Of a DNA stretch of 64,000 bases, positions 9,028-17,935 are shown piece after piece. Under the pieces are notes generated by a model. The model had not been told where the DNA came from. It made no database searches and saw nothing but the letters and a program-made list of their open reading frames with translations. The translations under genes and the position numbers were made by a program. Position 1 is the first letter of the stretch, and each line of letters begins with the position of its first letter. Source of the stretch: Alcaligenes sp. SDU_A2 (GTDB taxonomy: Bacteria > Pseudomonadota > Gammaproteobacteria > Burkholderiales > Burkholderiaceae_B). The DNA lies in NCBI RefSeq assembly GCF_038237375.1, contig NZ_CP151273.1:496001-560000 (forward strand). The letters are read 5' to 3'.

Positions 9028-9061
9028 CGCTCGAACGAATCCGTTCGAGCGTTTTTCTTTT
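9028..9061 (+). terminator. Rho-independent terminator after the CMD genes
   Basis: A perfect 10-bp stem (CGCTCGAACG at 9028-9037, CGTTCGAGCG at 9042-9051) with a 4-nt loop is followed by TTTTTCTTTT. It closes the LysR-flavoprotein-CMD operon and separates it from the convergent Zorya operon. Confidence 0.9.
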
Positions 9062-9087: not shown

Positions 9088-10188
9088 TCAGGCATATCTT
9101 TCCAGCGCCTGAGCCAGACCATCAATTTGCCAGCCCGGCACCTTCGGGTATGGGGCGGGGTCCAGGCTGACGCCGGTTTTCAAGCTCGGCCAGGCCAGGT
9201 CCAGCGTAAACATCGCATCCACGCCGGGCAGCGCATGGTTCAGCTCGGGCATGGGCAAGCGCTTGGCGCGCACCAAGCCCAGCAAGCCGTGCAAGGCGGG
9301 GTCGGTAAAGCGGGTCAGATCGTCCCAATTGGAATGGGAGGGACGCGCCAGAGCGCGCTTGCGCGTAATCAACTGCATATCGGCGCGTTTGATGAACATG
9401 CTGGAGTGACCGGGCTGATCCCGATGGCAGGCAATGCACAGCGGTCGCAGATTGCTGGCCAGATTGTTGCCTTTATTGCTGTCTACATGGTGTACATGCA
9501 GCAGATGCCGGTGGTCCGCCAGCGTGATCCGGCATTCATCGCATTGCCAGTCGTGCTGTTGCCGGACGCGTTCCGAGATGTCTTTCCAGTCGTCGGTATA
9601 GCTGCCGCGCCCTATGTCCGTCTCCGTCCGGTTGGGCAGGTAGGTAAAGCAGGAGTTATAGGTCTTAAAGAACTCGGCAATATCAAAGCGGTTCCGGATC
9701 TGTTCACGGATATGGCGGTTTGATACCGCCGCTTGCTGGAAATTAAGCTTGTTCAGGCACAGTTTGCAGACCAATAAGTGTGCGTTGCCGGTGACTTCTG
9801 CCTTGGTAAAGGGGTTGAAACCGGTGATGGGGAAACTGCCGCTGAGGTTTTTGGTGGCAATGTAGCGCTCGAACCGTTTTTCCTTGCGCATGGTCTCTAG
9901 CCGCGAACAGTGGGCAATATGGAATTTATTGCCTTCTGCCCGGCCGGCCAGAACTTCGGCGGCATTGCGGTTGTGGTCTGGGATATATAACAGCACCTGC
10001 CTGCCCTGGTAGGACAGCAGACCGCCGATGTCCCCCAACTCGTCCAGGGCGACTTCCAGGCCCCGGGTTTCCAGAATCAGGTCGATGGGCTGGATTTTTT
10101 GGCTGGCTCCAACGCTAAATGGCTCCCGCGTCGATGTCAGCCGTTCGACCTGCCCCCACAGAGCCGCAAAATTAAAATGAAGGTTCAT
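9088..10188 (-). CDS. zorE: ZorE-like HNH endonuclease, type II Zorya effector
   Basis: A 366-residue protein whose middle carries a clear HNH nuclease: QCDECR (Cys216, Cys219), HVHHVDSNKGNNLASNLRPL (His231, His233, His234, Asn242) and CIACH (Cys251, Cys254). The four cysteines should bind structural zinc. A further CKLC pair at 141-144 may form a second site. The first 200 residues match nothing I recognise. It follows the MotB-like gene by 2 bp and is the last gene of the operon. In type II Zorya the nuclease ZorE is thought to degrade or nick phage DNA once ZorAB senses infection at the cell envelope. Identification rests on gene order plus the HNH motif. Confidence 0.85.
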   Translation of the reverse strand: MNLHFNFAALWGQVERLTSTREPFSVGASQKIQPIDLILETRGLEVALDELGDIGGLLSYQGRQVLLYIPDHNRNAAEVLAGRAEGNKFHIAHCSRLETMRKEKRFERYIATKNLSGSFPITGFNPFTKAEVTGNAHLLVCKLCLNKLNFQQAAVSNRHIREQIRNRFDIAEFFKTYNSCFTYLPNRTETDIGRGSYTDDWKDISERVRQQHDWQCDECRITLADHRHLLHVHHVDSNKGNNLASNLRPLCIACHRDQPGHSSMFIKRADMQLITRKRALARPSHSNWDDLTRFTDPALHGLLGLVRAKRLPMPELNHALPGVDAMFTLDLAWPSLKTGVSLDPAPYPKVPGWQIDGLAQALERYA

Positions 10189-10190
10189 GG

Positions 10191-10895
10191 CTAGTCTTGC
10201 AGGATTTTCCGGATCTGTGTTTCGGCATTCGTCATTACCCGGAAGCTGACCCGGCGCGAACGCTCCGCATCTTCATGGCCGTGCTCGTCCAGCACCAGGC
10301 GGCTGGACGAAAAACCGACCGCCGCCATGTTCTGTCTGATCCACTCTTTTTCGCTTTTGACGGCATCCATATTCTGTATGTACAGCAGTACCGAACGGGT
10401 TCGTTCCTGCGACAGGGCCATATTGCGGAAATAGGCTTCTTCGGGCGGTGTCTGCTGGTTCCACTGCGAACTGGTGTGGCCTTCGATGCGGATCTCGTTC
10501 AAGGAATGGCGGAACTGGCTCAGCACCTTCAGGTAGCGTGGAAAAAAATCGTCCAGTATGTGCCGGAACGCCGGTTTGATAATGGCCGAGCCGGTCTGGA
10601 ACAAGACATCGGGGGACTTGAACTCGAACGCCAGCGTCAAGGGATCGATGTCGGCGTTCCAGGCGTCCAGATCGTTCTGGAACTCCTTTTTCAGGTTCTC
10701 GTACAGCGCCACCTGGTTGTTCTGGTAGGTAACGGCCACTTCCTTGATCTTGTCGCGTTCGCCCAGGGCGTTGCGCATCAGCAAAATACTGATGAACAGA
10801 AACACGATCATCAAGCCCGACATCAGGTCCGACACACTCATCCAGTGGTCCGCATCTTCGGCCGCTTTTTTAGGCCCGCTTTTGCTCTGAAACAT
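10191..10895 (-). CDS. zorB: ZorB-like MotB/OmpA-domain protein
   Basis: A 234-residue inner-membrane protein with a single helix (about residues 24-41, SDLMSGLMIVFLFISILLM) that contains the MotB-type proton-carrying Asp at position 23. The C-terminal half is an OmpA-like peptidoglycan-binding domain (LFQTGSAIIKPAF near residue 100, IRIEGHTSSQW near 140, RSRRVSFRVM near 220). In Zorya it anchors the ZorA5B2 ion-driven motor to the cell wall. It is 2 bp from both neighbours, so the three genes are one transcript. Flagellar MotB is rejected because no motility genes are nearby and an HNH nuclease follows. Confidence 0.9.
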   Translation of the reverse strand: MFQSKSGPKKAAEDADHWMSVSDLMSGLMIVFLFISILLMRNALGERDKIKEVAVTYQNNQVALYENLKKEFQNDLDAWNADIDPLTLAFEFKSPDVLFQTGSAIIKPAFRHILDDFFPRYLKVLSQFRHSLNEIRIEGHTSSQWNQQTPPEEAYFRNMALSQERTRSVLLYIQNMDAVKSEKEWIRQNMAAVGFSSSRLVLDEHGHEDAERSRRVSFRVMTNAETQIRKILQD

Positions 10896-10897
10896 GC

Positions 10898-12415
10898 TTA
10901 GTTCTGCCCTGCGTGCGCATCCAGCTCTCGGGTCTGACGGCTGTAGGTGTCAAGCAAGTGCTTGGCAATCGTGGCCAAGGCACTGCCCAACTGATCCAGT
11001 GCCGCGTTCAGTTGGGTTTCCAGGGCCTTGTCCACCCCCTTTAACTGCACGTTGACGGCTTCGCCCGTTTGGCTGACGACGTCGGTAATCTGGCGCTCCA
11101 GGCCGTTCAGGCCCCGTTCCACGGTCTGGCGCATGGTGTTCACCGTCTGCTCCACCGACTGGTTCAGCGCATTGGCGGACTGGCTGACATTGGCCTCGAT
11201 ATGCCCCATGGCCGTTTGCACGGCCTGGCTGATGCCGTTGCTGATCAGGTCGGTGTTTTGCTCGACCTTGGTCATGGAACTGGTCAGCTCCTGCGAAATG
11301 GCTTCGCTCATGCCGGCGATCTCGTGGGCGGTCTTGATCAGGGACTGGTTGGTGCCCGTTACGCTGTCGCCAAACTCCGCTGCGCCTTCCAGAATGATCT
11401 TGGTCATGGCATCCGCACCTTCGCGGATCTTGGAGCCGACCTCTTCCAGCTTGCGTTGGATTTCCGGCATGGCTTGTGTGGCCTGCGCACGCATTTCTAT
11501 AAAGGCGTCCAGATGGCGGGCCAGTTCCTGGATCTGGTGCTGATTCACGCTGAGCACGCCGGACAGCGCCTGCATGTCCTGCGGAATGCGGCCGGTTTCG
11601 ACCTTGATCGCTTCCACCGCCACGCGGGTTCCGTCTATGGATTTCACACCGAGATCAAACAGCTCGGTCATTTTTTCCATCTGGCCCTTGTATTCAACCT
11701 GCCAGTCCACCAGTTTCTTGACCGATTCGTCCAGGCGCTTGAAGTTATCGCCGAACTGCTCCGTCAGATTTTGATTGAACTCCGTAATGACCCGGCTTAA
11801 TGCTTCGATGACCTGTTCGGTGGCCGATTTGGAGAGTAGATCGCCGAAGGTTTGCAGTTGCGTCCACAGCTTTTCTTCAAAATTACGGTGTTGATTATTC
11901 TGGCTGCTCTTAAAGTCGGATAACTCGGTGCGCAGCAGCTTTAACTGGCCGACTAACGAACCTTCTTCTTTGCCGCCAATCGAGCTGACCAACGTAGACA
12001 GCAAAATCTGCTGGTTATTCATGACCGCATATATTTCGCGTGGGCCCACGTCGTCCGGAATATCGTCCTGCTTGGATTCGGGCTTTACCTGTTTGGACTC
12101 CCACCATTTGAACAACATGGCGCAGAACATGCCGACCACGCTGGTCACAAAAGCGGTTCTCAGGCCACCGAGCAGCCCGCGGATGCTGTCATCGATATTA
12201 GCCGGGTCAAAGACAAACAGCCCCCAAACGATGCCGGAAAATGTGCCCAGGATGCCGCAAGAGGTCATCATGGTGGGGGCAATCTCCACCAGCTTCGGGT
12301 TCGTGCCGGTTTTGACCGCGTGCCTGGCCTTGACGAATATCCAGCCTGTGATTGCGGCGAAAAAAAGAATGATTGCTATTTCTAGTTGATTTTCTTCTTT
12401 TAAAAAATCCATCAT
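10898..12415 (-). CDS. zorA: ZorA-like MotA/TolQ/ExbB-domain protein with long coiled-coil tail
   Basis: A 505-residue protein with three predicted helices in its first 105 residues (about 10-28, 46-69 and 84-105). The segments PTMMTSCGILGTFSGIVWGL and GLRTAFVTSVVGM are the hallmark of MotA/TolQ/ExbB proton channels. The remaining 400 residues are soluble, rich in Glu, Gln, Val and Ala, with heptad-like repeats expected to form the long cytoplasmic tail known from ZorA. Its length suits type II Zorya better than the larger type I protein. Two ATG codons (12415 and 12412) are possible starts. It leads the operon zorA-zorB-zorE. Confidence 0.9.
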   Translation of the reverse strand: MMDFLKEENQLEIAIILFFAAITGWIFVKARHAVKTGTNPKLVEIAPTMMTSCGILGTFSGIVWGLFVFDPANIDDSIRGLLGGLRTAFVTSVVGMFCAMLFKWWESKQVKPESKQDDIPDDVGPREIYAVMNNQQILLSTLVSSIGGKEEGSLVGQLKLLRTELSDFKSSQNNQHRNFEEKLWTQLQTFGDLLSKSATEQVIEALSRVITEFNQNLTEQFGDNFKRLDESVKKLVDWQVEYKGQMEKMTELFDLGVKSIDGTRVAVEAIKVETGRIPQDMQALSGVLSVNQHQIQELARHLDAFIEMRAQATQAMPEIQRKLEEVGSKIREGADAMTKIILEGAAEFGDSVTGTNQSLIKTAHEIAGMSEAISQELTSSMTKVEQNTDLISNGISQAVQTAMGHIEANVSQSANALNQSVEQTVNTMRQTVERGLNGLERQITDVVSQTGEAVNVQLKGVDKALETQLNAALDQLGSALATIAKHLLDTYSRQTRELDAHAGQN

Positions 12416-17859: not shown

Positions 17860-17935
17860 TGGTGCCGGCTAAAGGAGTTGAACCCTCGACCTTCGCATTA
17901 CAAGTGCGCTGCTCTACCAACTGAGCTAAGCCGGC
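17860..17935 (-). tRNA. tRNA-Thr (anticodon TGT)
   Basis: Read on the minus strand the 76-nt sequence begins GCCGGCTTAGCTCAGTTGG and ends AGCCGGCACCA. The acceptor stem is 7 bp (GCCGGCT/AGCCGGC), the D-arm GCTC..GAGC and T-arm GAGGGTTCAACTCCT are normal, and the anticodon loop CTTGTAA gives UGU for threonine ACA codons. The CCA end is encoded. A terminator follows. Confidence 0.95.

Follow-up and report, generated by a model that had tools for sequence, protein, structure and literature searches.

A type II Zorya operon in Alcaligenes sp. SDU_A2 whose ZorE shares a C-terminal module with ArmC

Defense by the type II Zorya system of Escherichia coli, including nicking by ZorE, has been demonstrated previously, and ZorAB of Sulfuricurvum kujiense was shown to be a 5:2 motor from which a rod extends into the cytoplasm (PMC11890865). 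Druantia type III (DruE-DruH) is a frequent neighbor of type II Zorya, and synergy of the two via ZorE has been reported. PMC12458937 describes a Zorya-Druantia-ARMADA array in E. coli and synergy between ARMADA and Druantia. According to a 2026 preprint (PMC13192584), the C-terminal region of ZorE is nuclease-like and "could not be confidently assigned" to a family.

Here, we identify an intact zorA-zorB-zorE operon of type II Zorya at positions 9088 to 12415 of the window, by which we mean the whole 64-kb stretch of DNA that was analyzed. Considered as a Zorya system, it is an unremarkable addition to type II. It resembles the E. coli system (PMC11890865, PMC13192584) in gene content, gene order, close spacing, required ZorB and ZorE residues, and a ZorE with a C-terminal module. 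However, ZorE is only 34% identical to its E. coli counterpart, and neither Druantia III nor ARMADA II is adjacent. The explanation that best accounts for the observations together, which we hold with good confidence, is that of an intact type II Zorya in which the ZorE tail is a separate module that shares homology with the terminal domain of the ARMADA protein ArmC and is most likely a transferable tag.

The zorABE operon and its genomic setting

The features of the operon are as follows.

10898..12415, minus strand: zorA, 505 aa, MotA/ExbB-like stator protein with a long cytoplasmic coiled-coil tail (PADLOC ZorA2; PDB 8VVI)
10191..10895, minus strand: zorB, 234 aa, one transmembrane helix with Asp23 and an OmpA/Pal-type peptidoglycan-binding domain (PADLOC ZorB2; Pfam OmpA)
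9088..10188, minus strand: zorE, 366 aa, DUF8245-like N-terminal region, HNH nickase core, and C-terminal module (PADLOC ZorE2)
9403..9564, minus strand: HNH/zinc-ribbon core of ZorE, residues 209 to 262, with C216, C219, H234, K239, N242, N246, H255, and H261
9091..9339, minus strand: C-terminal module of ZorE, residues 284 to 366, [ED]-L-A-W-P-x2-[KR]-x-[AG] ... G-W-x-[IV] (hhalign to ArmC, joint alignment, surveys)
9028..9051, plus strand: perfect stem-loop (10-bp stem) with a T run behind it, between a convergent plus-strand gene and zorE (read in the sequence; not flagged by a scan)

The three minus-strand frames are all open, and the zorA/zorB and zorB/zorE gaps are exactly 2 bp each. 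The first-pass annotation had placed three genes 2 bp apart here and had proposed PADLOC and HMM searches for ZorA, ZorB, and ZorE; all three proteins matched over nearly their whole lengths, at levels that chance would not produce. Its description of a MotA/ExbB-like protein with a long coiled-coil tail agrees with the match to ZorA2 (E value of 5.7e-145, residues 5 to 504), and its MotB/OmpA-like protein with an Asp in the helix is borne out by the match to ZorB2 (6.2e-99), a Pfam OmpA match above cutoff, and the presence of D23. The zinc-ribbon HNH protein matched ZorE2 (1.1e-110), which counters the concern that it might show no similarity to ZorE. The closest solved structure in a PDB search was type II ZorAB of S. 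kujiense (8VVI; E values of 6.5e-52 for ZorB and 8.3e-31 for ZorA), which likewise has a long ZorA tail and the ZorB Asp. However, it is distant in sequence (111 bits for ZorA and 179 bits for ZorB), and its ZorA has 378 residues versus 505 in the window. The operon contains neither ZorC/D nor ZorF/G, and a family profile search detected one such ZorE in the single 3.65-Mb contig of the host genome.

The best NCBIfam families were ZorA2, ZorB2, and ZorE, with scores below the trusted cutoffs in all three cases (407 of 700, 296 of 400, and 287 of 600 bits for zorA, zorB, and zorE), so that automatic annotation would miss the names. These cutoffs are presumably annotation thresholds tuned to closer relatives and no defining biological feature. 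Other type II Zorya copies similar to this one, with all three proteins below the equivalog cutoffs, are likely underannotated in RefSeq.

The stem-loop at 9028 to 9051 is likely the terminator of the convergent plus-strand gene. A scan found no sigma-70-like promoter upstream of the operon, which is weak evidence. The surroundings showed no integrase, and the sole tRNA of the window is a tRNA-Thr at 17860 to 17935. The first-pass annotation had viewed the operon as an insert between two housekeeping units. This agrees with the lack of a ZorE match in nine other genomes of the genus and with the conservation of lldD and the nearby tRNA-Thr in seven of them, where the stretch beyond lldD differs. 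The other flank fits less well, as the LysR/panB side was found within 15 kb in only one genome; no clean empty site was found in the genus genomes searched.

A terminal domain common to ZorE and ArmC

The ZorE family profile gave another match in the host genome, to the C-terminal 90 residues of a helicase of 2,144 aa. Its gene is surrounded by those of ArmA, ArmB, and ArmD relatives, and the helicase represents ArmC in an ARMADA type II operon. The host encodes a complete ARMADA II (G000:C1:2524123-2541476), 1.6 to 2.0 Mb from the Zorya operon, in the order armA, armB, YprA-like armC with a C-terminal Vsr (by motif), and armD. Its ArmA, ArmB, and ArmD are 48%, 47 to 49%, and 45% identical to the E. 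coli proteins, respectively, and its ArmC is 70% identical to that of Giesbergeria. An extra 243-aa frame lies between armB and armC and has no relatives among the loci compared. The first-pass annotation was correct on the type II Zorya operon, but it had missed the C-terminal module of ZorE, its sharing with ARMADA II proteins, and this second operon.

Profile comparisons show that the last approximately 80 residues of ZorE and the terminal domain of ArmC, the YprA-like helicase of ARMADA II, are homologous. When 57 ZorE tails were combined into a profile and compared with full-length ArmC (10 sequences; hhalign), columns 2050 to 2131 matched with an E value of 3.9e-15, while the next best place among the 2,146 columns reached 0.16; the strong match is therefore a single one, at the C terminus. 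A smaller comparison gave 6e-13. The joint alignment has the pattern P-x-[VI]-G-x-[DE]-[LI] ... [ED]-L-A-W-P-x2-[KR] ... G-W-x-[IV]. AlphaFold2 models of both tails have the common order helix-strand-strand-strand-(helix)-strand; the ZorE model is confident (mean pLDDT of 90.2, pTM of 0.84), and the ArmC part is moderate (pLDDT of about 80). BLASTP of the host ZorE against the host ArmC did not detect this homology, so that profiles are needed to see it. The relationship covers ZorE residues 286 to 366; the remainders of the two proteins, an HNH nickase versus a 2,100-aa helicase-Vsr nuclease (PMC12458937), are unrelated. No mention of a shared module was found in the searched portions of the main texts of PMC12458937 and PMC13192584.

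The module was present in 31 of 32 frames longer than 2,000 aa assigned to ArmC (some genes being counted twice). It was absent from all five DruE sequences (one full and four partial) and from short ZorE proteins (252 to 302 aa). In a set of 72 ZorE loci, obtained by a contig search with a ZorE alignment after a single-protein query found none, 57 carried the module and 15 encoded a short ZorE without it; no ZorE relative was found in phage records. Several loci deserve separate mention. A 7.5-kb mobilizable Psychrobacter plasmid (L030) has a short-ZorE Zorya II as its main cargo and is a natural minimal clone. Another locus (L205:2044-3881, minus strand) encodes a ZorB relative followed by a ZorE relative with the N-terminal parts, a weak C-terminal module, and HNH histidines that seem lost, possibly a noncatalytic ZorE. 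Two ZorE contigs labeled Heimdallarchaeota (L040) and Anaerolineales (L066) are close in sequence to proteobacterial copies and are probably misbinned.

Module carriers and candidate partners

Surveys of 369 genomes from the class and 399 genomes from the phylum detected the module on ZorE-type frames and long frames only. The long frames were ArmC with one exception (G317), a TmtA-like protein encoded directly upstream of armD. A survey of 50 genomes with a module-bearing ZorE revealed further carriers.

Microbulbifer, between armB and armC: GmrSD-family protein, 741 aa
Colwellia, between armB and armC: TmtA-like sacsin/NO VEIN protein, 1,631 aa
Vibrio albus: second TmtA-like protein
Oceanospirillales genome, adjoining armB: NERD-UvrD helicase, 857 aa

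The idea that the module is confined to ZorE and ArmC was therefore rejected, as three more kinds of carrier exist, including one from the unbiased sample (G317). The GmrSD protein has plasmid relatives (51 to 53% identical) that stop at residue 637 to 666 of 741, and the NERD-UvrD protein has plasmid relatives (40 to 43% identical) that stop at 746 to 748 of 857. Both sets end before the module, which was thus most likely added to these two carriers; TmtA relatives on plasmids are too distant for such a comparison. The module is missing from some of the cargo genes located between armB and armC. V. albus also encodes a 107-aa frame comprising little beyond the module (L062:11447-11767), between zorE and the tmtA-like gene.

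Close ArmD relatives were detected in 20 of the 50 genomes with a module-bearing ZorE, always directly downstream of a module-encoding gene (20 of 20), namely, armC in 17 cases, zorE in 2, and tmtA in 1. Similarly, in the class sample, all eight close ArmD genes followed a module-encoding gene directly, while none of six distant ArmD-like genes (33 to 35% identity) did so. As armD stands behind zorE and tmtA as well as armC and the distant ArmD-like genes show no such position, adjacency follows the module and not the helicase. In two Pseudomonas loci, zorABE is followed directly by armD without armC (L074 and L075, 10001 to 13293); they perhaps represent a minimal Zorya-ArmD hybrid system. 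In an Oceanospirillales genome, the gene directly upstream of armC encodes another YprA helicase, DruE-like and about 1,970 aa long (L204:7378-13302, minus strand).

Arm or Dru genes occurred within 10 kb of 18 of 57 module-bearing ZorE loci versus 0 of 15 loci without the module (P = 0.015, uncorrected for relatedness). Seven loci had zorABE between armB and armC, and in several others zorABE adjoined armA. Genome-wide, ArmC was found in 17 of 57 genomes with a module-bearing ZorE, 0 of 15 with a short ZorE, and 7 of 369 background genomes. In a ZorE tree from which the module columns were excluded, linkage to ARMADA required 12 changes for 14 linked tips, indicating that the association recurs across the tree, by gains or losses; module presence or absence required two changes. 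We also considered the module as a feature of Druantia synergy and rejected this, as 39 of 57 module-bearing ZorE loci have no ARMADA or Druantia gene within 10 kb.

Taken as a tag, the ZorE C-terminal module would bring unrelated effectors to a partner, or to a DNA structure, that they have in common. The best candidate for this partner is ArmD, as armD lies directly behind a tagged gene in all islands examined. We tentatively propose, at somewhat less than an even chance, that this unrecognized module is an interchangeable tag feeding ZorE, ArmC, GmrSD-type, NERD-UvrD, and sacsin-like ATPase proteins into one machine, with ArmD (RelE-like plus UvrD helicase) as the common receiver. ArmD cannot be the sole reason for the module, since no ArmC was detected in 40 of 57 genomes with a module-bearing ZorE and no ArmD in 30 of 50 (some of these genomes being drafts). 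Such hosts would need a partner present in all of them, and PMC13192584 links Zorya II to RecBCD and to intermediates containing single-stranded DNA. These observations favor an alternative to which we also give a little under an even chance, that the binding partner of the module is a common DNA structure or host repair factor rather than ArmD and that adjacency to armD reflects shared operon history only. However, a history of the armC-armD pair gives no account of armD directly behind zorE or tmtA where armC is absent. Docking on ArmD thus fits the adjacency, and the many module-bearing ZorE proteins that stand alone are in line with a DNA structure or host factor.

The module could instead be a second, active PD-(D/E)xK-like nuclease domain of ZorE, a possibility hinted at in PMC13192584 that we regard as unlikely. 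The motif's acidic and basic residues are each retained in 29 of 31 sequences, and a nuclease-like pocket is described in PMC13192584. In contrast, the module lacks the second acid/DG and the H of the Vsr motif found in ArmC's active domain (RPDFVLWP...AVYLDGxxYH in ArmC versus AELAWP...K-x-A-V, with the DG lost, in the module). Moreover, PMC12458937 terms the extra terminal Vsr domains of ArmC inactivated, and the proteins to which the module is fused have nuclease domains of their own.

On our main reading, the module probably has a degenerate Vsr-like fold, because its motif resembles that of ArmC's active Vsr with the DG lost; this assignment is based on motif and modeled topology. A Pfam scan of 31 module sequences gave no match, Foldseek of the ZorE and ArmC models against the PDB returned nothing significant for the module, and hhalign gave no link to ArmC's own active Vsr domain.

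Residue conservation and possible cooperation with ARMADA II

Comparison with the E. coli type II Zorya sequence (NZ_CP127005.1) and other ZorE loci indicates that nearly all experimentally required residues are kept. ZorE in the window retains H90, Y109, Y197, H234, K239, N242, N246, L247, H255, and H261, equivalent to E. coli H90, Y109, Y189, H226, K231, N234, N238, L239, H247, and H253; with the exception of Y109, these E. coli positions are reported as mutated in PMC13192584. The listed core residues between 209 and 262 fall in invariant or nearly invariant columns of the family alignment and match required E. coli positions where tested (PMC13192584). In ZorB, D23, H140, S142, R214, and R229 correspond to E. 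coli D24, H141, S143, R215, and R230, mutants of the Asp and peptidoglycan-binding residues having been described (PMC11890865). In ZorA, T58, T87, T91, and S92 are conserved. Together with the family HMMs and 8VVI, this agreement with the mutated E. coli proteins supports the type II Zorya assignment of the first-pass annotation.

As the required ZorE and ZorB residues are retained, the system is likely active. A decayed copy that has lost protection appears quite improbable: the promoter scan was negative, and two E. coli residues required for synergy with Druantia against Bas37 are replaced in this copy (E99 by T99 and H235 by L243), but both columns vary widely across the family, all three frames are open, and all tested residues required for stand-alone defense are retained. 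That the motor pair is of a flagellar, Tol, or ExbBD type unrelated to defense is suggested by weak MotB/OmpA family matches and can practically be dismissed, as type II Zorya families lead by hundreds of bits, ZorE adjoins at 2 bp, and the neighboring genes look metabolic on inspection, with no motility or secretion genes among them, contrary to the flagellar or secretory origin that the first-pass annotation had raised as a counterexplanation.

By homology with the described systems, ZorA5-ZorB2 would form an ion-driven motor, with ZorB anchoring in peptidoglycan. Phage entry would disturb ZorAB, rotation or rearrangement would travel down the long ZorA tail, and ZorE, as an HNH nickase, would then nick the invading DNA. 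With a common tag on ZorE and ArmC, ZorE and the remote ARMADA II could cooperate in trans in this host, and we infer that the module acts as a C-terminal tag in such cooperation. The expected Zorya link would thereby shift from Druantia to ARMADA: DruE lacks the module, and the host genome had no match to E. coli DruH (one query).

The homology gives a label to a region of ZorE left unassigned in the literature. Clustering of Zorya II, Druantia III, and ARMADA II is established, as is synergy for two pairs of them, and a shared, swappable module of approximately 80 residues offers a specific hypothesis for a physical link. If this is true, Zorya II and ARMADA II would be modular parts of one defense network, even when encoded far apart.
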